DNA of 10,951 nucleotides, from assembly GCA_017509375.1 (NCBI GenBank), contig JAFWPT010000252.1, positions 1 through 10,951 on the forward strand, written 5' to 3'. Position numbers and translations under genes: made by a program. Numbering within the stretch: position 1 is the first letter of the stretch; each line of letters opens with the position of its first letter. Source of the DNA: Bacteroidales bacterium (GTDB taxonomy: Bacteria > Bacteroidota > Bacteroidia > Bacteroidales > UBA932). Shown here piece by piece: positions 1 through 10,951 of the stretch. The notes under the pieces are model-generated. The model was given only the letters and a program-made list of their open reading frames with translations. It was not told where the DNA came from and searched no databases.

Positions 1-1136
1 CAGAAACTCACCTGGAAATTGGCCGGCGGAGTGTCGGGCATACCGTTCACTATGGTTTCCAGCAGGCTCAAGAGCAAAACCGCAAATACAATTCCGAAAG
101 AGCCTGCCACCAGGGTGAGACTGATACTCTCCATTATTATCTGGCTGAGAATATCCCTGGGCGTAGCCCCGATTGCCCTGCGGATTCCGATTTCCGTGGT
201 TCGCTCCTTCACCGTGACCATCATGATATTGCTCACGCCTATCACTCCCGCCAGAATCGTTCCGATGCCTACCAGCAGGATAAGGAAGTTCAATCCGGTA
301 AACAAGTTGTCCATGATTGAGAAAAGCTGCTCAGTATTCACGAAAAACAGGGCGTCATTGTCGGTAGGATCGAAATTGTGCTCCCTTGCCAGAATCTGCC
401 TTATTTTGGACTCGAGCGTCCCCATCTTGATACCGCTCCTCGCAGTAACGCAAAGCAAGTCGATGTTGTTGCCCCTATGGTATATCTTCTGGGCAACCGG
501 CAAGGGAATAGTAACAGCTTCGTCGGCATTGCCGTTGATGCTCATGTTGCCGGAATTGTAATCCACGCCTACTACCTGATAATAGACGGGGCCAACTTTT
601 ATCATAGTGCCGCAGGGATCTCCTCCGTCGGGGAAGAGACTGGTATAGATACGCTTACCTATTACGCATACTTTCCGTTCCTGCGCTATGTCAGCTTCGT
701 TGAGATAGCGGCCGTACCGGATGCGCGGTTCCTCTATCTTGGAATAATCGGCATAAACTCCCTTGATGTCGGAATCGACGGTATTGATGCCGTTGACCGC
801 CTCCTGGCTCCAGCTGGACACCAACGGAGTAATCGTCTCAAGTTCGGGGACCATAAGCCTCAGACGCTCCAGGTCTGTATATGTGAGTTCCCAGCCCCTG
901 CCCTCCTTGAGGCCTTTCCAAGGCTTGCCTGTACGGCTGGAGGCCATCACCTCAGTGTTGGTGGCAAAGCCCTCGAAGTTGGCGGTAATCACTTGCTTGA
1001 GTCCCTGCCCGCCGCCGAGCAGGAAGAGCAGCATGAAGATGCCCCAGAACACGCCGAACCCGGTCAGCAGGCTGCGGCTCTTGTTCCTCACCAGGGAATC
1101 CGCAATCTCACGGTATGTATCTACGTCGAATCTCAT
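1..1136 (-). CDS. MacB/FtsX-type ABC transporter permease, second of a tandem pair (3' end outside window)
   Basis: This is the N-terminal 378 residues of an inner-membrane permease of the MacB/FtsX family; the reading frame stays open to the window edge. The ATG at 1136-1134 overlaps the TGA of the preceding permease as ATGA. A cytoplasmic N-terminus (RNKSRSLLTGF) leads into membrane segment 1 at about 22-44. A large periplasmic MacB_PCD-type domain follows at about 45-280, then membrane segments at about 282-306 and 335-362. The FtsX core motif is clear: SNIMMVTVKERTTEIGIRRAIGAT at about 302-325. The last membrane segment and C-terminus lie beyond base 1. It resembles the first permease in layout and in the first 45 residues, so the two are probably ancient paralogues that pair with the single ATPase upstream. 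MacB-type systems use ATP to drive periplasmic substrate export or lipoprotein handling rather than direct transmembrane transport. The substrate cannot be told from sequence. Confidence 0.93.
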   Translation of the reverse strand, partial: MRFDVDTYREIADSLVRNKSRSLLTGFGVFWGIFMLLFLLGGGQGLKQVITANFEGFATNTEVMASSRTGKPWKGLKEGRGWELTYTDLERLRLMVPELETITPLVSSWSQEAVNGINTVDSDIKGVYADYSKIEEPRIRYGRYLNEADIAQERKVCVIGKRIYTSLFPDGGDPCGTMIKVGPVYYQVVGVDYNSGNMSINGNADEAVTIPLPVAQKIYHRGNNIDLLCVTARSGIKMGTLESKIRQILAREHNFDPTDNDALFFVNTEQLFSIMDNLFTGLNFLILLVGIGTILAGVIGVSNIMMVTVKERTTEIGIRRAIGATPRDILSQIIMESISLTLVAGSFGIVFAVLLLSLLETIVNGMPDTPPANFQVSF

Positions 1137-2398
1137 TCTGCCCTGAGTGCTTCTATAGGTCTCACGCTCGCCGCTTTCCTGGCAGGGAAAAAGCCCGCAA
1201 GGGTACCGGCCACAATCAATACAAGAGTTGCTTCAAGAGCTATGTCCAGGCCGACACCCGGATTCACCAGCATTGCCACCTGCTGGTCGAACATGCTCAT
1301 TTTGGCCTGGCCGAGAGTCTGGTCCAGTATCATACAGGTAACCATGCCCAGAAACATGCCTATGTAACCGAAAATGGCGGTGATGGCAACGCTTTCAGAA
1401 ATGATGAGTTTGGTGATGCTGGCCGGACTTGCGCCTATGGCCTTGCGTATGCCGAATTCGTGAGTGCGCTCTTTAACTGTAATCAGCATGATGTTGCTCA
1501 CACCCACAATACCGCCCAGCAAAGTGAAGAGACCTATTATCCACAGGGCAGTGCTGATAATACTGCGGGCCCGCTTCATCTGGACATCCTGATGAGCCCT
1601 GTTCCACACCCATATTGCACGTTCGTCGTCGGGAGCGGCCCGATGGTGCAGATTGATAACGGCCTTATACTGTTTCTCGAAAGCTTCATTCGCCGCTTCG
1701 GTATCCAGGTTTTTAGTGGTGAAAGAGATGCTTCCCACTTCCTGGCCCTTGCCATACACGGTCTTCACGGTGGTATAAGGAGCATAAAGGTTGTTGTCGT
1801 TGCGCATATTCTCCGACTTGCTTATACCTACCACCCTGAAAGCCAGGGAACCCACTTTCACATAACGGCCGATCAGGCTCTCCGCGGATTCTCCGTTCTC
1901 AAGCAGCCTCCTGGCCGTATTTTCAGGCATCACTACAACCTTGCGGCTGTCGCTGATGTCCTTGTCGTTCAGAAAACGTCCGTAACGTATTTCAATCTTC
2001 GACATCTCCTGCGCGGCAGGATACTGGCCGTCAATATATCCGGAGAAAGACTTTTTACCGAGCGAAACCATGGCGCCAGTGCCGACGGTGGCGGATACCT
2101 GGTCCACGTAGTCCGAGAACAAATTTCCGCCGGTGAGCTCTATATCTTTATCGTCCAGGCGGATACGTCTGCCCGACTTGAGCCCGTCATAGGGTTTGGA
2201 AGTCCAGCCGCCGCCCACGCTCACGGAGTTGGACGCGAAGCCCTCCCGCCCCTTCATGAAAGAATTCATAAGGCCGTTGCCGGTACCCAGAAGCACGATG
2301 AGCATAAAGATACCCCAGGAAACGGCAAAACCGGTGAGGCAGGTGCGCATCTTGTTCCTGCGTATGCTCTCCCATATTTCGGTAAACAGGTCTTTCAT
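1133..2398 (-). CDS. MacB/FtsX-type ABC transporter permease, first of a tandem pair
   Basis: The protein is a complete 421-residue permease. The chosen ATG at 2398-2396 overlaps the ATPase stop as ATGA and gives the usual short MKDLFTEIWESIRRNK cytoplasmic start; a longer in-frame start at 2500 would add 34 basic residues that are only ATPase coding in another frame. Membrane segment 1 is at about 20-43 (LTGFAVSWGIFMLIVLLGTG). The periplasmic domain spans about 45-275, with three further segments at about 281-305, 332-358 and 386-406. The FtsX signature SNIMLITVKERTHEFGIRKAIGAS lies at about 301-324. The C-terminus FPARKAASVRPIEALRAE is the classic coupling tail of MacB permeases. It is expected to form an inner-membrane complex with the ATPase and the second permease, powering export with a periplasmic adaptor and an outer-membrane channel. 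Neither partner is in the window. The stop overlaps the next start by 4 bp, implying translational coupling. Confidence 0.96.
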   Translation of the reverse strand: MKDLFTEIWESIRRNKMRTCLTGFAVSWGIFMLIVLLGTGNGLMNSFMKGREGFASNSVSVGGGWTSKPYDGLKSGRRIRLDDKDIELTGGNLFSDYVDQVSATVGTGAMVSLGKKSFSGYIDGQYPAAQEMSKIEIRYGRFLNDKDISDSRKVVVMPENTARRLLENGESAESLIGRYVKVGSLAFRVVGISKSENMRNDNNLYAPYTTVKTVYGKGQEVGSISFTTKNLDTEAANEAFEKQYKAVINLHHRAAPDDERAIWVWNRAHQDVQMKRARSIISTALWIIGLFTLLGGIVGVSNIMLITVKERTHEFGIRKAIGASPASITKLIISESVAITAIFGYIGMFLGMVTCMILDQTLGQAKMSMFDQQVAMLVNPGVGLDIALEATLVLIVAGTLAGFFPARKAASVRPIEALRAE

Positions 2399-3117
2399 TT
2401 CATTATCGTCTCTGTGCCGAACATGGATGCGTGATGCTCCCGGTTGTCTTCTATACGCCCTATAACGCCGTCTTTGATATGCACTATCTTGTCGGTGCAA
2501 TTAGCAACTCCGCTTTCGTGGGTAACTACTATGATAGTCACCCCGTCCTCCCGGTTAAGCTGTCCCAGGAGCTGCATCACCTCTTCGGAAGTCTTGGAAT
2601 CCAGGGCGCCGGTGGGCTCGTCTGCAAGGATTATTTTGGGATTCGTTATGAGGGCGCGCGCAATCGCCACGCGCTGCTTCTGCCCGCCGGACATTTCATT
2701 GGGATAGTGGCCTGCCCAGTCGGCAAGTCCCAGGCGGTCCAGGAACTGCATTGCCATTTCGTGGCGTTTGTGCCGGCTCACTCCCTGGTAGAACAGGGGC
2801 AATTCCACGTTCTCCACTGCAGTCTTGAAACCGATAAGGTTGAAAGACTGGAAAATGAAGCCTATCATACGGTTGCGGTAATCGGCCGCTTGCCTCTCGC
2901 TCAAGTTCTTGATCAGCTTCCCGTCGATGTAGTACTCGCCGGTATCGTAATTGTCCAGAATTCCCAGAATATTGAGAAGGGTGGACTTGCCTGAGCCGGA
3001 AGCTCCCATGATGGACACGAATTCCCCGCTGTCAATCCCGAGATTGATGCCCTTAAGGACATGCAGAGGCTGCCCGTTATTGTACGTCTTGTTGACGTCT
3101 TTCAGTTCAATCAGCAT
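2395..3117 (-). CDS. ABC transporter ATPase, MacB/LolD type
   Basis: This 240-residue protein is the cytoplasmic ATPase that energises the two permeases downstream. All motifs are intact: Walker A GASGSGKST at 38-46, Q-loop Gln90, ABC signature MSGGQKQR at 142-149, Walker B IILADEP at 162-168 with catalytic Glu167, the D-loop ALDS at 171-174, and the H-loop His200. The length and the FQSFNLI sequence after the Q-loop fit the MacB/LolD/FtsE branch, where ATPase and permease are often separate polypeptides in Bacteroidota. ATG is at 3117-3115. The 39 bp to the upstream PspC-like gene show no promoter, and the stop overlaps the next start as ATGA, so it is an internal gene of the operon. An LolD role is less likely than MacB-like export, because the permeases resemble MacB and lie in a PspC/PadR context, but sequence alone does not settle it. 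Confidence 0.96.
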   Translation of the reverse strand: MLIELKDVNKTYNNGQPLHVLKGINLGIDSGEFVSIMGASGSGKSTLLNILGILDNYDTGEYYIDGKLIKNLSERQAADYRNRMIGFIFQSFNLIGFKTAVENVELPLFYQGVSRHKRHEMAMQFLDRLGLADWAGHYPNEMSGGQKQRVAIARALITNPKIILADEPTGALDSKTSEEVMQLLGQLNREDGVTIIVVTHESGVANCTDKIVHIKDGVIGRIEDNREHHASMFGTETIMK

Positions 3118-3156
3118 AGCGCCGGACTTGCCACAATTATTATTCCAAAACTCTGA

Positions 3157-4170
3157 TTAAATGCTACTTGCCGAGAAGGCGCAAGCACAAATCAGCACTG
3201 TAAGCACTACAATTACGATCAGCCACACTACAAACAGCACCAAACCCGGCCTCCATTTGGGTGCTTTGATCCGGAAAAGCAGGAGAACACTGCAGTAAAG
3301 CATACCCAGGAAAGGGATGGAAAAGGCAAGGATGCCCAAAACCTGAACCCAAATGGTGTTCAATATATCCAGACCCGGGGGGAAGTTTGCTGACAGTTCC
3401 GCAAATCCCTCATTTACAAGGGACGACAGGCCCAGCCACTTCCAGCCGAAAAGTCCGAGGCCACCCGCAAAGAGGCCGGTTACACCGGTAATCAAAAGCA
3501 AGATTCCAATGATAACTTCCAGTATGCGGCCCATGCTGCTCCAGGCCGGAGAATTGCCTACCTGGTGTACTGCGTTGCGAATCTCACCTGCACCGCTTTC
3601 TATAGAGCGCCTTACACTTTCCACGCTCCCGTCATCGCCCCGCATCTGCCAGCGCTGACGGGCTGTCTTGGCGGCAGGAATGCAAATCCAGAGGATGATG
3701 TATATAAGAGGAACGGTTAGGGTAAGATATCCGTTTTTATCCACGAAACCAACCAGTCCGGCAATTCCGAGTGCGAGGAAAGCCACCCGGAGTATTACAG
3801 GGTCGAAATTGAAGTATGCAGCGATTCCGCCGCATACGCCCGCAAGCTTTGCGTGCTCTATGTCCCGGTACAAGCGCTTAACAGGCTTCTCCGCTTTCCC
3901 CGGATTCACGTCATCCGGTTCATCCTGGGCAATGCGCTCGGGACGGCCAAGGATATTTATGATATCCAGGATAGCAGACCGGCTTACTACCCCGTCGGCC
4001 ACTGTCCGCTCACGGAGCAGTTCGGCCATACGTTCTTCTATACCTTCGCTGATTTCAGGATTATCGTAGAAATTAGCGACTTCGTCGAGGTATTGCCTGG
4101 CTTCTGCAGCGGCTTCCGTATCAAACGTGAAGGCATAACCTCCAATACTTGCTTTTTCTATCTGTTTCAT
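3157..4170 (-). CDS. PspC-domain membrane protein with extra C-terminal membrane segments
   Basis: The 337-residue protein has three parts. Residues 1-80 form a soluble N-terminal domain starting with a GGYAFTFD strand and then helices; it is related to the same region of the smaller PspC protein two genes upstream. Residues about 98-168 are the PspC domain (KRLYRDIEHAKLAGVCGG, then NFDPVILRVAF and the hydrophobic YIILWICIPAAK end). After a polar linker at about 170-210, three more hydrophobic stretches follow at about 215-245, 272-298 and 308-332. PspC proteins are inner-membrane members of the phage-shock response that sense or transmit envelope stress. The extension is longer than in minimal PspC proteins of 60 to 190 residues. 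The ATG at 4170-4168 overlaps the PadR stop as ATGA. Its position before an ABC exporter suggests it modulates or reports on the same envelope process, which is inferred. Confidence 0.9.
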   Translation of the reverse strand: MKQIEKASIGGYAFTFDTEAAAEARQYLDEVANFYDNPEISEGIEERMAELLRERTVADGVVSRSAILDIINILGRPERIAQDEPDDVNPGKAEKPVKRLYRDIEHAKLAGVCGGIAAYFNFDPVILRVAFLALGIAGLVGFVDKNGYLTLTVPLIYIILWICIPAAKTARQRWQMRGDDGSVESVRRSIESGAGEIRNAVHQVGNSPAWSSMGRILEVIIGILLLITGVTGLFAGGLGLFGWKWLGLSSLVNEGFAELSANFPPGLDILNTIWVQVLGILAFSIPFLGMLYCSVLLLFRIKAPKWRPGLVLFVVWLIVIVVLTVLICACAFSASSI

Positions 4171-4496
4171 TGCTTGAGTGTTTCTATTGCCTTTACCATT
4201 TCTTGCCAGGCGCTGTCCATATCGGCCAGTTGAGAGCGCCCTTTTTCAGTGATGCAGTAATACTTGCGCGGAGGGCCCTGGGTGGATTCTTCCCACCTGT
4301 AAGAAAGCAGGCCCTGGTTCTTTTGACGTATCAGCAGAGGGTAGAGTGTCCCCTCAACCACTATCATGTCGGCCTTTTTAAGTTCCTCAATGATATTGGA
4401 TGCATATGCTTCGTGCTTTGCCAGTATGCACAGGATGCAATACTCAAGCACGCCTTTGCGCATTTGCGAGCGCACGTTATCGGCATTGCTTTCCAT
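4167..4496 (-). CDS. PadR-family transcriptional regulator
   Basis: This is a 109-residue winged-helix repressor of the PadR family, close to the minimal size for the family (PadR-s2 type). The start at 4496-4494 (MESNADNVRSQMRKGVLEYC) lies 4 bp after the stop of the upstream PspC gene; a longer frame opening at 4553 only reads through that gene. The N-terminal helix RKGVLEYCILCILA at 13-26 and the recognition region EGTLYPLLIRQKNQGLL at 48-64 are typical. So are the wing GPPRKYYCITEKG at 74-86 and the C-terminal dimerisation helix at about 88-108. PadR proteins usually repress their own operon or a neighbouring efflux gene until a ligand or stress signal releases them. Here the gene sits between two PspC genes and before an ABC exporter. 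An inverted repeat at 5104-5122 over the operon promoter is the natural candidate target. Confidence 0.95.
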   Translation of the reverse strand: MESNADNVRSQMRKGVLEYCILCILAKHEAYASNIIEELKKADMIVVEGTLYPLLIRQKNQGLLSYRWEESTQGPPRKYYCITEKGRSQLADMDSAWQEMVKAIETLKQ

Positions 4497-4500
4497 ATCT

Positions 4501-5058
4501 TTATTGTTTATTTGAGTTAGTAAATTTGGCCAGATTCTCGGCAGTGGGCACATGCCCCCGGAGCTCGCACTTCTCCGCAGACGTATTGGCTTTGGGAACC
4601 GCTATCCAAAGAATCACGTAAATCCAGAAGCCGGCTGAACCTACGATCAAAGCTACCAGCATGATAATCCTGATGAGAGCAGTATCCACTCCGAAGTAAA
4701 GAGCTAGACCTGAGCATACACCGGCAATCCGTACATCATCTGTATCCCGATACAGCCTGCGGGCTTTAGTATTGGATGATGTATCGGCATTGCTGGTGGA
4801 AGTACTGCTTCCATCCGGCATGCCCAGCTGATCTATCACTTTCTCTACAAGGTTAAGGTCGACCACTTTGCCGCTATCCCCTGTGGATTCGTAGAAAAGA
4901 TCAGCTATACGCGACTCCAGCTCATCCATAACCTCCTCTGTTCCAATCTCTTTCACATGGTCACGAAAGAGCTTGAGATATGCATCCAGACGCACGTATG
5001 CATCTTCGTTGATGGTGAAATTCCGGCCTCCTATGCCGGCTGAAATTACTTTTTTCAT
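4501..5058 (-). CDS. PspC-domain protein, first gene of the operon
   Basis: The 185-residue protein begins with the Bacteroidetes-type N-terminal domain at 1-80 (MKKVISAGIGGRNFTINEDA, then a helix ending VEKVIDQLGMPD). A Ser/Thr/Asn-rich linker follows at 83-98, then a PspC domain at about 99-157 (RRLYRDTDDVRIAGVCSGLA, YFGVDTALIR, and a membrane segment at about 129-155). A short cytoplasmic tail follows. PspC is an inner-membrane component associated with the phage-shock envelope-stress response. It is the promoter-proximal gene, with ATG at 5058-5056 about 24 bp downstream of a TAnnTTTG element. The next gene, a PadR regulator, starts 4 bp after its stop. It shares its two-domain plan with the longer PspC protein downstream, so the two look like paralogues flanking the regulator. 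Interaction with the PadR protein or the ABC permeases is possible but not shown by sequence. Confidence 0.92.
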   Translation of the reverse strand: MKKVISAGIGGRNFTINEDAYVRLDAYLKLFRDHVKEIGTEEVMDELESRIADLFYESTGDSGKVVDLNLVEKVIDQLGMPDGSSTSTSNADTSSNTKARRLYRDTDDVRIAGVCSGLALYFGVDTALIRIIMLVALIVGSAGFWIYVILWIAVPKANTSAEKCELRGHVPTAENLAKFTNSNKQ

Positions 5059-5081
5059 TGTTTGGTTGCTTAATTACGATG

Positions 5082-5113
5082 CAAAGATATAAATATTTTT
5101 TAATACTTTGCAA
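5082..5113 (-). promoter_or_regulatory. Bacteroidetes-type promoter for the PspC-PadR-ABC operon
   Basis: On the minus strand TATCTTTG at 5089-5082 matches the Bacteroidetes -7 consensus TAnnTTTG exactly. A TTG at 5113-5111 lies 21 bases upstream, close to the spacing expected for the -33 element. The start codon of the first PspC gene is 23 bases past the -7 box, leaving a leader of roughly 15 to 20 nt. The region is very A+T rich compared with the flanking genes, as expected for a promoter. This is the only good match in front of any gene in the window. Confidence 0.7.
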
Positions 5114-5122
5114 TACAAAGTA
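5104..5122. promoter_or_regulatory. Inverted repeat over the -33 element, candidate PadR operator
   Basis: TACTTTG at 5104-5110 and CAAAGTA at 5116-5122 form a perfect 7+7 inverted repeat with a 5-base spacer (centre at 5113). The spacer and arms cover the TTG -33 element of the promoter just described, so a dimer bound here would block the polymerase. PadR dimers bind inverted repeats of this general size, often within their own promoters. Assignment to the PadR gene two positions downstream is inference from position and symmetry; the sequence is not the classical ATGT/ACAT PadR motif. Confidence 0.45.
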
Positions 5123-5125
5123 CAT

Positions 5126-5170
5126 AAAATTAAAAAATATTTTGCGGCACAATATTTTTTGTACCGCAAA
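5126..5170 (-). terminator. Rho-independent-like terminator after the esterase-EEP gene
   Basis: Read on the minus strand, bases 5170-5161 (TTTGCGGTAC) can pair with 5150-5141 (GTGCCGCAAA), giving a 10-bp stem with one G-T wobble and a 10-base A/T loop. It is followed by ATATTTTTTAATTTT at 5140-5126. The stem begins 36 bases after the TAG of the secreted esterase gene. It separates the metG-linked transcript from the PspC operon promoter immediately beyond. The stem contains three or four G-C pairs, so its efficiency may be moderate. Confidence 0.6.
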
Positions 5171-5206
5171 ACATTATTCTGCAAAAGGCCAACTATGAAA
5201 AGAGCC

Positions 5207-7420
5207 CTAGAACAGGAGGTCAGAAAAGACTGGATAGTGGTCGGAGATATAAGGTCTGCCGGCATACTGGTCCGTGACCACCTTGAAGCGGCGGCTGGAC
5301 TTGAATCCGCTATAGTATATATAGTCTATCATTTCCTGCGTGTCATTTCTGAATCCGTTGAAAGAGCCTCTGGGGTCCGATTCAGCAGAGTATATGCGGG
5401 CGTTTTTCATCAGCGCCGATATGTCTTTCAGGCACTCGTCGTCCGGGAAGACATTGAAGTCGCCGAGAAGAATCATAGGATAGCCCTCGGGATTCATCTT
5501 CTTGATGTTGTTGTAAACCACGGCGAGGCCTTCCCTGCGGGCTATGGCACCCTTGTGGTCGAGGTGGGTGTTGACGAAGTAGAACCTGCGGCCGGTGGCT
5601 TTCTGCTCCAGCAGCGCCCATGTGGCGGTGCGCCTGCAGGCGGCGTCCCAACCGAAACTGGGGACGTCCGGAGTCTCGGAAAGCCAGTAGGTACCCCAGT
5701 CTATCATATTGAGGCGCTTGGTATCATAGAAGACGGACATCTGCTCGCCCTTCTGTACTCCGTCATCCCTGCCTACACCTACCATCTTGTAGTCGGGGCA
5801 ATGTTCGAGAATGTAATCCACCTGGTTCTGGTAGGCCTCCTGCACGCCGAACACTTCCGGATGTATGTCAAGTATCATCGCCGGGGTGGCGTCGCAGCGT
5901 ATATCCCATGCATTGTCGCCGTCCTTGGCCTTGGAGTTGCGGATGTTGTAGGACATTACCCTGAGCAAATCGCCGCTGAAACGTTCAAGTTCCCAGTTGT
6001 CACTGCGGAAGGGACCGGCCGGAATGCCCCAGCCATTGAACAAGTTGCCCTCATTCCAGTTGCGGAAGCAATAGCGGACCGCTGCCGGCTCAGGGACGTC
6101 GGGGCTCGTGACTTCGACGTTTTTGCCATCCTTGACAAGGCCTGTAGCGGGATGGAATATCATATCGGAGCCGGCAAGATCGAATCCGGTGATGTCCTTG
6201 CCCATAGGGGAGAGTCCGCGGTCGTCCACCTTCATCGTGACGATGGCCTTGCAGCCATCGAATTTAACGCTTTCAAAAGTAGGGGCAACAGGGTCGGCGC
6301 CCTTTAAGCCATACTCTCCGACAAGCGCATTGTAGGCAAGGCGGAAGCCTACTTCCTTCTTCTTGCATGGATGGATTGTACCGAATTCTCCGATGTCGCC
6401 GGTGGTTACCATACCGCTCTTGGGAATCAGGTCGAGAGCTTTCTGCTGCGCTTCGCGAAGGTAGCCTGAGGTGAACTCTTCCGGATTACCGTATTTGTAC
6501 GGCGCTATCTGCACATAGTAGAACGGGGCGTCGGGATTGTTGAACAGCCGGCGCATCATAGCCACATACTCCTGCTGCAGGCGGAGATATTGATCGTGGC
6601 GGTGCCTGTTGGATTCTCCCTGGTACCATAGCATTCCCTTGAAAGTAAAGGGTATGAGGGGATTTACCTGACCGTTGAACAAGGTGCAAGGAGCTTGATG
6701 CTTCTTAGCCGGCATATCTCCGCTGTCGAGGAAAGAAAGGTCGAATTCGCCGGGGAAACGGCCGCTTATCGTTTCCCTGTCCATCCAGGCCTCTATGGTG
6801 GAACCGCCCCAATCGGTGATGAGCAGGCCTACAGGTACTCCAAGGACCTCCTGCAACTTGAGAGCGAAGAAATACGCAGTTGCGCTTGTGGACGCTACGG
6901 CCTCTGGAGTATTCTCTTCCCAGGAGCCCCCACATTTGTCGACGGGCGACAGGGAGGCGTTGCGCTTGATTGTGCACATACGCACAGGGAGGTCAGGCTT
7001 TGCGGAGAGTATCAGATCGCCGGCTCCTTCCACGGGCTGGCTGCGGAAGCCTTTCATGGGCATTTCCATATTGGACTGACCGGAGCAGAACCAGACTTCT
7101 CCCACCAGGACGTTCTTCAGGACGGTCTTCTCGCCGTCGGAGATTGTTACGGTGTAAGGGCCGCCGGCGGGTGGTGTCTGTATCTTTGCGGACCATTTGC
7201 CCCCGGCATCGGGAACGGCAACCGTCTTTTTAGATGTCCAGGAAGGACTGATGCTTACCTTTTTCCCGGAATCGGACCAGCCCCAGACTGCTGCCTGGGT
7301 ATTCTGCTGGAATACCATATTGTCGCTGAAAAAAGACGGAAGAGTAACTTTGGAATGGGCTTCAAAACTCGCTGCTGCGAGTACGGCCAAGACGATTGAG
7401 ATACGGATAAACTGTTTCAT
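5207..7420 (-). CDS. Secreted bifunctional protein: sialate O-acetylesterase-type SGNH esterase fused to EEP hydrolase
   Basis: The 737-residue protein has an N-terminal signal peptide (MKQFIRISIVLAVLAAASFEAHS, cleavage near residue 23). The start is ATG at 7420-7418; a TTG two codons earlier is less likely. Residues about 25-478 are a SASA/sialate O-acetylesterase unit: GQSN with nucleophile Ser116, WYQGESN at 265-271, and FGTIHP with catalytic His350, ending with GIPAGPFRSDNW. Only about eight residues later an endonuclease/exonuclease/phosphatase domain starts (LLRVMSYNIR, Asn492). All its metal and catalytic positions are visible: Glu528 (GVQE), His619 (NTHLDH), Asp654 and Asn656 (GDFN), Asp699, and Asp727-His728 (SDH). 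The first half should remove acetyl esters from sugars such as sialic acids. The second is a Mg-dependent phosphodiesterase or phosphatase whose substrate is not fixed by sequence. Both would act in the periplasm or outside the cell. It follows the phosphatase-glycosidase gene by 31 bp. Confidence 0.93.
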   Translation of the reverse strand: MKQFIRISIVLAVLAAASFEAHSKVTLPSFFSDNMVFQQNTQAAVWGWSDSGKKVSISPSWTSKKTVAVPDAGGKWSAKIQTPPAGGPYTVTISDGEKTVLKNVLVGEVWFCSGQSNMEMPMKGFRSQPVEGAGDLILSAKPDLPVRMCTIKRNASLSPVDKCGGSWEENTPEAVASTSATAYFFALKLQEVLGVPVGLLITDWGGSTIEAWMDRETISGRFPGEFDLSFLDSGDMPAKKHQAPCTLFNGQVNPLIPFTFKGMLWYQGESNRHRHDQYLRLQQEYVAMMRRLFNNPDAPFYYVQIAPYKYGNPEEFTSGYLREAQQKALDLIPKSGMVTTGDIGEFGTIHPCKKKEVGFRLAYNALVGEYGLKGADPVAPTFESVKFDGCKAIVTMKVDDRGLSPMGKDITGFDLAGSDMIFHPATGLVKDGKNVEVTSPDVPEPAAVRYCFRNWNEGNLFNGWGIPAGPFRSDNWELERFSGDLLRVMSYNIRNSKAKDGDNAWDIRCDATPAMILDIHPEVFGVQEAYQNQVDYILEHCPDYKMVGVGRDDGVQKGEQMSVFYDTKRLNMIDWGTYWLSETPDVPSFGWDAACRRTATWALLEQKATGRRFYFVNTHLDHKGAIARREGLAVVYNNIKKMNPEGYPMILLGDFNVFPDDECLKDISALMKNARIYSAESDPRGSFNGFRNDTQEMIDYIYYSGFKSSRRFKVVTDQYAGRPYISDHYPVFSDLLF

Positions 7421-7451
7421 ACTCAAAGAATTAGCGGTGCGGCAAAATATA

Positions 7452-9545
7452 CTATTTTACTATTATTACATTGGGAACCACCCTTTCCCCCTCATGGTCG
7501 AAAACTTGATTGTCGTAAGGGTGATTGATCACGCCGGAGCTCTGAGTCCACAATGTGGAAGACCCTCCGCCGTCAAGGTTTATGGCCTCGTACAGACCAA
7601 GGGACTCGCAGAGGACCTGCAATTCGGAGATGGACATGCCATCTGCCATTGAGGGGAAACGCCCGTCCACCACGACGAAATACAGCCATCCGTCGCTTGT
7701 GTATCCCAAGAGGGTGCGCGGGTGGCGCTTGGCATAGAACTTTTTGTACAGCCGGGAACCGTCGTCTTCGTATTCAGGAATCATTCCGTCTTCCACCAGC
7801 ACCGGGCCGGAAACTATGGCCTCGCGCCATCCCTTGGCAGCTTTTGATGCAGCTTGGGAATCTGCCGAAACTATATCTACTGTTTTGCCCTTCTTGTCCA
7901 AAATGCGCAACATTCCGTTGCAGCGATATGAGCCGTCGGATGTCCGGGCACACTTCACCCGCCCGTCGTCTTTCACGAAAGTAGCAGGCGTAAGGTCTTT
8001 TTCGAAATAACTGCCGTTGATTGCCGCTATCGCCCTGGCTTTTTCCCCGAAGCTGCTGGTAATAGCTGCGGAAGGGCCGTCGGACTCAACCAGGGAAAGG
8101 GAGTATTCACGTATGGGGAATCGTGCCAGGGAAATACTCTGTACGCTGCCGAAGACATTGACTGATGCCGTTCCGGCCTCGACCTTGGTGTTCCCCACAG
8201 GCCGCCATCCCCAGTCAACAGTCTTCAGGGCAGCCAAAGGCTCCGAGCAGATTATCCTGCGTTGAGAGGCTCGTATGACAGGCCGGTAATACTCCTTGAA
8301 ATCATTCCAGCTGTAGTACGGCCCGCACGCCGCAGGGACCGGAAGAGTGGCCTCACGTTCGTTTACGAGGGCCTTCAACAGGATATTGCCTTGTGCATTT
8401 CTGTAGAACACGAGCTGAAGCGACGCCCCCATGGGGATGTCATAGCTGGGCAGAATCTCCAGGCTCTGGTCAAAAGATGACGCGCAGCGGCCGCAGCCGT
8501 CGGCATCCATTATCACCAGCAGCGGAGCTATGCCGGAGTCGTGCCCGAAGCGCAAGCGCAACTGTGTATCTCCCGAAAGCATGTCGCTGTCTGCCGATGC
8601 TATTATCTGCTCAAGGGTATAAGCCGCATAGTCCACAGCAAGGTTCTCCGAGCCCTCAAAGCGGGCGACGTGAAGGAAGAAACGGGCTGACAGACCCCTC
8701 CAAAGCGACATTGCTTCATCTCCCGAGAAAACATCATCGAAACATCCCCTGTCTTCGTCCAGGCACCACGTGCCGAAAATTACCGCACCTAAAGTATTGA
8801 AAAACTGTATGGGAGACAGATTAAGCCCCTTCGTAACTTCATCAGGGTCGGTGAAAAACTTTCCGGCCAGCTCTTTCCAGTGGACCCTGTCCTCGAAATA
8901 ATCGCCCAGGGCGCCGTTGGCCGCTTTTCCGCAGTGGAACGCATTCTTCACCAGATAAGGGTTGGACGGCAGGGCCGGCTGTAGCCATGAGGCATACTTT
9001 CCGGAAGCGTCGGCCTGTATTTCCATATCGTCATCCAGCTTGGAAAGTTGCGACAGGCAGGACCACATGCTCATTATTACCCGGGGAGATTCTGTAGATA
9101 CCGCATCCACATGGGTAGCCCCCTCAAAGACCTCAGGGAAATGCTCAAACATACGCGTTGCAATATCCCTGTGCTGTGCCTTACCAAGTCCGGTAAGATT
9201 GCCGCCGCAATACTTGTACTTCTCGTAGAAATCTTTGTACCGGGCATAAAATGCCTTGCCTGCGTCAGTAAGCACCCCCTTTTCCGACGCCATTCCAAAC
9301 CACTTGTAAACGCTGTCGTATTCGCTTAGGCAAAAGCGTGCGCCATGACGTGCGTAATGGCTGATATAAAAAGGTTTATACCCTTCCGGTGCAGGAGTGG
9401 CAGCAGGCAGGGCGCCGCTGTCGTAAACATAATAATTGCCGGCCGTCTTCTGCGGGTCCAGGAGAACGGCGCCACAAGGCTCCTGGGCAAAGCAAAGCCC
9501 CCAGAAGCAAAAGAGAGAGACCGCAGTAAATAACAAGTTTCTCAT
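7452..9545 (-). CDS. Secreted bifunctional protein: histidine acid phosphatase fused to phosphodiester glycosidase (NAGPA/DUF2233)
   Basis: The 697-residue protein has a signal peptide (MRNLLFTAVSLFCFWGLCFA, likely cut after residue 20; no good lipobox). Residues about 35-430 are a histidine acid phosphatase of the phytase/MINPP type. ARHGARF at 65-71 holds the nucleophile His67, LTGLGKAQHRDIATRM at 117-132 is a family block, and FGHDSGIAPLL at 333-343 holds the His335-Asp336 acid pair. Residues about 443-697 are a phosphodiester alpha-N-acetylglucosaminidase-like domain (PF09992). Its marks are AAINGSYF at 507-514, RHPRTLLGY at 608-616, VVVDGR at 624-629 and NLDGGGSSTLW at 656-666. This domain is the human NAGPA 'uncovering enzyme' fold, which cleaves sugar-phosphate-sugar diesters; the phosphatase half would then take the exposed phosphate. 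It lies 14 bp after metG. Thirteen or so cysteines, including a CGRC just after the HD pair, fit an exported protein. Whether both halves share one substrate is inference. Confidence 0.92.
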   Translation of the reverse strand: MRNLLFTAVSLFCFWGLCFAQEPCGAVLLDPQKTAGNYYVYDSGALPAATPAPEGYKPFYISHYARHGARFCLSEYDSVYKWFGMASEKGVLTDAGKAFYARYKDFYEKYKYCGGNLTGLGKAQHRDIATRMFEHFPEVFEGATHVDAVSTESPRVIMSMWSCLSQLSKLDDDMEIQADASGKYASWLQPALPSNPYLVKNAFHCGKAANGALGDYFEDRVHWKELAGKFFTDPDEVTKGLNLSPIQFFNTLGAVIFGTWCLDEDRGCFDDVFSGDEAMSLWRGLSARFFLHVARFEGSENLAVDYAAYTLEQIIASADSDMLSGDTQLRLRFGHDSGIAPLLVIMDADGCGRCASSFDQSLEILPSYDIPMGASLQLVFYRNAQGNILLKALVNEREATLPVPAACGPYYSWNDFKEYYRPVIRASQRRIICSEPLAALKTVDWGWRPVGNTKVEAGTASVNVFGSVQSISLARFPIREYSLSLVESDGPSAAITSSFGEKARAIAAINGSYFEKDLTPATFVKDDGRVKCARTSDGSYRCNGMLRILDKKGKTVDIVSADSQAASKAAKGWREAIVSGPVLVEDGMIPEYEDDGSRLYKKFYAKRHPRTLLGYTSDGWLYFVVVDGRFPSMADGMSISELQVLCESLGLYEAINLDGGGSSTLWTQSSGVINHPYDNQVFDHEGERVVPNVIIVK

Positions 9546-9559
9546 AAAAGCTGACTATT

Positions 9560-10951
9560 TCAGCCCACTTGGGAGCCGTTGGCAAGTACTTCCTGAGGAG
9601 TGATGAAACGCATGGTGCCATCGCCCTGCTTGGCCATCAGAATCATTCCGTGGCTTTCTATGCCGCGGATTACCCGGGGCTTGAGGTTGGCCAGGATGCA
9701 GATCTGCTTGCCCTGCATATCTTCCGGTTTATAGTATTCCGCTATACCAGAGACTATTACACGGCGGTCAACACCGGTATCGATAGTAAGTTTGAGAAGC
9801 TTGTCGGTCTTGGGCACGCGCTCGGCTTCCAGCACCGTGGCGGTGCGTATATCCATCTTCTCGAAATCCTCGAAAAGGCACTCTTCCTTAAGCGGGGCAA
9901 GCTGCCTTGCTGCCTCCGCCTTGGCACGGGCTTCCATTTCAGCTTTGATAGCTTCGAGCCTGGCTATCTGGGCGTCAATCACATCATCCTCTATCTTGGC
10001 AAACAGCAGTTCGGGTTCCGCTATGGAATGACCGGCGGGCAGCACCTGAGGACGACCGAGCAGTTCCCAGTCAAGGACTATGGCTCCGGGTGACGGCACG
10101 TGACCTGTGTGCAGGGCACAACCTTCACCTTCCCTGTATGTGTTCACGGTTTCCTGCTCGCCTTTGCGGTGGTCGAAACCAGCCTGGAGATCCACTCCGA
10201 GCATCCTGCGCAGCCTCTCGGCCGCGAAAGGAGTGAAGGGCTCGAAAGCAATGGCAAGATCGGCGCAAATCTGTATGGAGATGTTCAGGATGGTGGCGGT
10301 ACGCTCCATGTCAGTTTTGGCAAGCTTCCAGGGCTCAGTGTCGGATATGTATTTGTTGCCTGCCCGCGCTATTCCCATCGCGTCTTTGAGGGCCTCGCGG
10401 AAACGGTAGTTTTCCAGGTTCTTCTCCATTGAGGCCTTGAGTGCGGGTATCTCGGCCAGCACTTCCTTGTCCACGTCCTGAAGCGCTCCGCACGCCGGTA
10501 CCTTGCCGCCGAAATACTTATGGGTAAGCACCACGGCACGGTTTACGAAATTGCCGAAAATCGCTACCAGTTCACTGTTGTTGCGGGTCTGGAAGTCTTT
10601 CCAGCTGAAGTCGTTGTCGGCCGTCTGGGGGGCGTTTGCAGTGAGCACGTAGCGCAGTACGTCTTCTTTCCCGGGGAAATCTTTCAGGTATTCGTGAGCC
10701 CATACCGCCCATCCGCGGGAGGTGGAAATCTTGTCGCCTTCCAGGTTCAGGAATTCGTTGGCCGGCACATTTTCGGGCAGTATGTAGCCGCCGTAGGCCT
10801 TAAGCATGGAAGGGAACACAATGCAGTGGAACACAATATTGTCTTTGCCTATAAAGTGAATGAGACGTGTGTCCTGGTCTTTCCACCATGTTTCCCACTG
10901 TCCATATTTGTCCGGATGGGCATCGCAAAGTTCTTTGGTATTGGAAATATA
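9560..10951 (-). CDS. metG: Methionyl-tRNA synthetase, C-terminal 463 residues (5' end outside window)
   Basis: This is the C-terminal two thirds of MetRS, the cytoplasmic enzyme that charges tRNA-Met. The frame is open to the window edge, reading [20 protein letters not shown] at the start. The second half of the class I catalytic core includes the ATP-binding KISTS loop (the KMSKS equivalent, residues 74-78 of this fragment). It continues through an anticodon-binding helical domain ([20 protein letters not shown], then WKLAKTD). A coiled, charged linker ([20 protein letters not shown]) leads into a C-terminal OB-fold tRNA-binding domain at about 355-463 ([20 protein letters not shown] through [20 protein letters not shown]). 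This full-length, two-domain form is usual in Bacteroidota. An in-frame GTG at 10834 is internal, not a start. The next gene begins 14 bp after the TGA, so the secreted hydrolase genes may share its transcript. Confidence 0.97.

Follow-up and report, generated by a model that had tools for sequence, protein, structure and literature searches.

Phosphodiester-linked glycans occur in capsules, teichoic acids, phosphomannans and lysosomal tags, and they demand more than ordinary glycoside hydrolases. The locus described here raises the question of whether a single polypeptide could open such a link and then remove the phosphate. The sequence analyzed, called the window, is a 10.9-kb stretch from Bacteroidales bacterium (UBA932), assembly GCA_017509375.1, contig JAFWPT010000252.1, positions 1-10,951. 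It contains a gene joining a histidine acid phosphatase (HAP) domain to a NAGPA/DUF2233 domain. The recurrence of this fusion, often in glycan-eating gene clusters, points to a so far undescribed mode of breaking down phosphate-linked sugars. The repeated pairing provides a concrete enzyme and locus for studying the breakdown of phosphodiester-linked polymers by gut-type bacteria, and the fusion might yield a one-pot tool for uncapping and dephosphorylation. A literature search, from which subscription papers were mostly absent, found, among the papers listed, none on the combination of HAP with NAGPA and no utilization locus for phosphodiester-linked glycans. In Bacillota, fusions of NAGPA to other domains have been described (PMC12419801).

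Architecture of the fusion protein

The fusion gene is real. It is a single open frame, with the HAP domain at the N-terminus and the NAGPA domain at the C-terminus, and each half was modeled with confidence and has its motifs intact. This confirms the original prediction of one polypeptide carrying both motif sets (Table 1). The product is probably exported to the periplasm. Residues A20 and Q21, at the end of the signal peptide-like segment, are almost invariant in a 32-row alignment (A1), and no lipobox was seen when the N-terminus was inspected by eye. An NCBIfam scan of the fusion named no family.

The HAP half has the score, the RHGxR and H(D/AE) motifs and the core-plus-cap fold of PF00328 (histidine phosphatase branch 2), and its catalytic core is kept. 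It resembles the MINPP-type phosphatases of Bacteroidales, such as those of Prevotella sp. CAG:617 (7r5y) and B. thetaiotaomicron (BtMinpp, 4fdt), in its whole fold and in the RHGxR nucleophile motif. PMC3969271 gives an HAE tripeptide and Arg183 as MINPP hallmarks of BtMinpp. Unlike BtMinpp, the fusion has HD for HAE (GHDSG at residues 334-338, giving HDS), an additional C-terminal NAGPA domain, and no residue like Arg183; the pairwise alignment places Pro190 or Gln189 there, approximately, since the position adjoins a gap. The structure 7r5y, which was deposited as MINPP, likewise has HD.

The NAGPA half matches PF09992 with 125.8 bits against a cut-off of 25 and has the fold of solved NAGPA/DUF2233 structures. 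It shares this fold with the animal NAGPA uncovering enzyme for mannose-6-phosphate (6pku) and with the bacterial DUF2233 protein BACOVA_00430 (3ohg). It differs from them in sitting behind a phosphatase and in bacterial export, and its identity to them is 22-24%. Its catalytic residues are given as family motifs rather than mapped residues. The motifs were counted in 130 distinct proteins matched by hidden Markov models (HMMs) for both halves, fragments included. HD or HAE is present in all 130, DGGGS in 126, RHGxR in 125, and a relaxed NGSYF pattern in 118. Three of the four proteins lacking DGGGS have cut-down NAGPA halves (P0094, P0098 and P0101), and the fourth, P0058 (639 amino acids), is also short.

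Table 1. Features of the window, with the fusion gene and its parts first
Feature	Position	Strand	Basis
HAP-NAGPA fusion gene, 697 amino acids, single open frame	7452..9545	-	homolog list, Pfam
Signal peptide-like segment, residues 1-20, ending CFA, followed by Q21	9486..9545	-	sequence by eye
HAP (HP2) domain, residues 26-433	8247..9470	-	Pfam, structure comparison, alignment
RHGAR motif, predicted catalytic His67 by family analogy (PMC3969271)	9336..9350	-	sequence
WLQP, residues 187-190, approximate position of BtMinpp Arg183	8976..8987	-	alignment
GHDSG, residues 334-338, predicted proton donor Asp336 by family analogy (PMC3969271)	8532..8546	-	sequence
NAGPA/DUF2233 domain, residues 453-697 (Pfam core 504-696)	7455..8189	-	Pfam, structure comparison
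NGSYF motif of the NAGPA half	8004..8018	-	sequence
NLDGGGSS motif of the NAGPA half	7557..7580	-	sequence
SASA acetylesterase-EEP (Exo_endo_phos) fusion, with its listed start 25 bases past the HAP-NAGPA stop	5207..7426	-	Pfam
Methionyl-tRNA synthetase (metG), truncated by the window edge, 14 bases upstream of the fusion's ATG	9560..10951	-	Pfam
Terminator-like hairpin, 17-pair stem with T-rich tail, after the SASA-EEP stop	5136..5175	-	consensus match only

Recurrence and repeated joining of the two domains

The fusion is found in many other proteins. Both Pfam domains are present in 94 of the best 120 of 1340 homologs (E < 1e-3), the window's own protein being among the 94. An assembly artefact was therefore rejected, and with it the rare or assembly-specific fusion that would have undone the original prediction. 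A few of the listed homologs are named 'phosphodiester glycosidase family protein', and the list also holds HAP-only relatives with 51-62% identity, some of them perhaps fragments. By the HMMs, both domains are present in 144 proteins, HAP alone in 100 and NAGPA alone in 61; the rows of the trees below were picked from these. Of 60 proteins scanned with Pfam, five matched no family. Across 393 evenly sampled genomes of the order, with at most two candidates scored in each, no row spanned both halves, which makes the fusion look restricted to certain clades. At least three close and at least six divergent full-length fusions are present in the 299 genomes of the family to which the nearest metG relative belongs. 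The genus of G597 (121 genomes) has eight close fusions; that of G735 is cut by a contig end and that of G705 lacks part of the HAP half.

Judging from the domain trees, HAP and NAGPA were paired on more than one occasion, and NAGPA halves were swapped under one HAP lineage. Proteins with HAP first form three types: A, which includes the window's protein, B, with 30-34% identity to it, and C, which is P0124-like. The trees were made from selected rows (75 for HAP and 65 for NAGPA), and the topology tests were picked after the trees were seen. The HAP trees are quick ones with long branches, and they place L090, which is of type B, with type C. In the HAP tree type A and six nested solo HAPs make up one starred set, and its nearest outside relatives are solo HAPs. 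A single clade of type B and type A with its nested solo HAPs was rejected (p-AU 0.0008, L090 left out). In the NAGPA tree type B groups with the extra NAGPAs of type B loci (100/99, starred), and a clade of types A and C was rejected (p 2e-45). Also rejected was a type A that includes P0093 and P0095 (p 0.0002); judged from the trees, these two carry NAGPA halves from other lineages on HAP halves of type A. P0128 and P0130 mix halves of different groups as well. Two further hypotheses without the nested solo rows, all fused HAPs as one clade and A plus C, were rejected in tests confounded by secondary losses, so the weight is put on the NAGPA tests and on the HAP tests that include those rows. 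Some solo HAPs seem to be such losses, since P0106, which is nested in type A, retains a vestige of the NAGPA half.

The two domains also occur in the opposite order. All 130 fusions counted above have HAP first, which reflects sampling biased by the query; NAGPA-HAP proteins were found afterwards. This order is present in all five loci read for it, with RHGSR, GHD and DGGGS in each. An unfused pair is found at L146. There, downstream of a SusC/SusD pair, two NAGPA genes are followed directly by a separate gene for a type C-like HAP, which shares 77% identity with the HAP of P0130.

Gene neighborhoods of the fusions

GLUG genes, extra NAGPA genes or both adjoin six of the nine type A loci, counting the window and leaving out L124, which is too short. 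Two of them, L084 and L085, are like polysaccharide utilization loci of Bacteroidota in carrying FecR, SusC and SusD in sequence. These are followed by a GLUG/BT_3987-N protein, a NAGPA-like protein with a lipoprotein-like start, and the fusion (FecR, SusC and SusD of L084 were identified by Pfam, the order in L085 by BLAST). Unlike typical loci of this kind, they have only SusD, the GLUG protein and the NAGPA gene between SusC and the fusion, and no glycoside hydrolase (GH). Such enzymes are present near other fusions, with GH95 and GH3 at L083, GH2 at L124 and GH106 at L127. At L083, L119, L122 and L123 there are GLUG and NAGPA neighbors, some of which are fused as GLUG-NAGPA.

Seven of the eleven type B loci have GLUG, NAGPA or SusC/D genes nearby (L086, L089, L090, L128, L130, L131 and L147), a count in which L128 is nearly identical to L086 and L147 was assigned by BLAST only; L087, L088, L127 and L129 have none. 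NAGPA or GLUG genes are near all five reverse-order loci. A SusC/SusD pair lies in the same stretch as the fusion in type A loci L084, L085 and L122, type B loci L089 and L090, and reverse-order locus L138, with the SusC gene of L089, L122 and L138 running off the end of the stretch. EEP-family genes adjoin L089, L130, L131, L144 and L147 and lie near L090 (called by Pfam at L144 and L090, and elsewhere by BLAST at 27-28% identity). Twenty genomes of this kind contain only 82 NAGPA matches, so chance adjacency would be rare, as estimated from the match count rather than from a gene-order null.

Other genes recur around the fusions. A protein of 246-257 amino acids occupies the same place in three type A loci (L083 13833-14606, L119 6317-7090 and L122 13208-13948); its recurrence was judged from size, position and N-terminus rather than alignment, and the L083 and L122 copies have no Pfam match. 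At L083, L087, L089, L130, L131 and the window (3-3117), the fusions have MacB-type transporter genes no more than about 10 kb away, in varying orientation. A second, separate HAP gene identified by Pfam (L089:11058-12350) is directly upstream of the type B fusion, and L130 and L131 have genes of the same size, unscanned, in that place.

Proposed function, alternative explanations and substrate

The fusion is, with moderate confidence, an exported hydrolase with two active sites that acts on glycans with sugar-1-phosphate diester links. The NAGPA half would first cleave the glycosyl-phosphate bond, so that the capping sugar is released and the acceptor sugar keeps a phosphomonoester. The HAP half would then strip the exposed phosphate via a phosphohistidine on His67, with Asp336 as the proton donor. 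Related genomes have the same pair in glycan-utilization-type loci with SusC/SusD, GLUG proteins, extra NAGPAs and often an EEP-family gene. The pairing is supported as a functional one: the coupling proposed in the original prediction gains from the repeated joining, the two domain orders, the unfused neighboring pair and the glycan-utilization loci with more NAGPA. The activity of each half, the order of the steps, a shared substrate and the protein's location are what we infer. It is possible, though less likely than not, that these genes make up an undescribed class of phosphoglycan utilization locus. SusC/SusD would import fragments of a sugar-1-phosphate-diester polymer, and one exported polypeptide, joined repeatedly and in both orders, would alternately remove sugar and phosphate as a processive exo-depolymerase.

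HAP domains of the wider family are also joined to GDPD, calcineurin-like, 5'-nucleotidase_C, NAGLU, GH2 and EEP partners. A number of these partners cleave phosphodiesters, consistent with a design in which a diester is opened before the monoester is removed. Proteins with two phosphoesterase domains include HAP with calcineurin-like (L133:719-3583), with 5'-nucleotidase_C (L059 and L072) and with GDPD (L062).

Several results weigh against the proposed function and its history. HAP domains of the wider family have such varied partners that a fusion by itself gives poor guidance. Among solved structures, inositol-phosphate phosphatases are the closest to the HAP half. The nested solo HAPs show that the pairing can be lost, and a clade of types A and C was not rejected in the HAP tree (p 0.264, P0128 left out). 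The reverse-order proteins adjoin type B in both trees, which makes a rearrangement look likelier than an independent origin. Pfam scans of two of them found NAGPA in both and His_Phos_2 in neither; their HAP half is supported by the HMM (410-428 bits) and by BLAST identity of 51-56% to a type B HAP. Ten of the twelve proteins without the NGSYF pattern are type B with full-length halves, so the motif is not conserved throughout. In the extra NAGPA genes of type A loci, DGR and DGGG are retained and the motifs at both ends are altered (DGGGG, NGPMA or similar), and their products may be inactive. GLUG and extra NAGPA neighbors are absent at type A loci L120, L121 and the window, and L126, the only type C locus with context, has no GLUG, NAGPA or SusC/D neighbor. 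Unlike genes of SusC/SusD polysaccharide utilization loci, the window's fusion lies outside such a locus; within the 10.9 kb no SusC/SusD pair is beside it, and its neighbors are metG and the SASA-EEP gene.

The HAP half could instead be a phytase-like inositol-phosphate phosphatase, with the NAGPA half acting on an unrelated glycan and the fusion sharing export only. This is unlikely given the HDS and, at an approximate position, the Pro190 or Gln189 found in place of the two BtMinpp hallmarks, the WLQP that is invariant in all 32 rows of the alignment, and a pairing made more than once, with many copies in loci that have further NAGPA genes. An explanation of similarly low probability is that the pair serves general phosphate mineralization, on glycerophosphodiesters, teichoic acids or nucleotides, and belongs to no dedicated phosphoglycan pathway. 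The HAP-GDPD, HAP-calcineurin, 5'-nucleotidase_C-HAP and EEP-HAP fusions agree with it, as do the GDPD gene beside type B locus L129, the calcineurin-like phosphatase beside type B locus L088 and the EEP genes beside several fusions. The SusC/SusD pairs, FecR and GLUG in many fusion loci are features of glycan uptake loci and argue against it. Least probable is a NAGPA half that only binds or has a structural role: the altered extra NAGPA-like proteins, the type B fusions without NGSYF and the lack of any assay of a bacterial NAGPA member in the literature search would fit it, and it is opposed by DGGGS in nearly all fusions, where the misses have cut-down halves or are short, and by the presence of both NGSYF and NLDGGGSS in the window's protein.

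For the proposed two-step hydrolase, the genomes give hints of the sugar. Fusions of GH92 with NAGPA (P0127, P0140 and others) have NAGPA domains that are among the nearest outside the HAP fusions in the rows listed, with 41-46% identity, and they hint at mannose. Unlike the window's fusion, their partner is GH92 and not a phosphatase, and their loci have a TonB-type barrel and a BACON protein. Yeast phosphomannan, to which these fusions hinted and which falls among the phosphomannans originally proposed, is weakly supported and was rejected as the substrate; in the genus sample GH76 shows no association with the fusion, being present in one of eight genomes with type A fusions and in 11 of the 113 others. 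A bacterial or other phosphoglycan is a candidate. GH92 does not discriminate, since it is present in 102 of the 121 genomes, including seven of the eight with fusions. Alpha-GlcNAc is hinted at by L125, where NAGLU (alpha-N-acetylglucosaminidase) is joined to a HAP 60% identical to the window's (L125:260-3613) and overlaps the end of a NAGPA-like gene.

The GH92-NAGPA fusions of L091, L092, L094, L095, L135 and L136 are preceded on the same strand by genes for a BACON-domain protein and a large TonB-type barrel (seen by domain scan in L091, by BLAST in L135 and L136, and by likeness of size only in L092, L094 and L095). In the window, the EEP domain of the SASA-EEP protein has relatives joined to GDPD, PF00756, GH3, melibiase and HAP.
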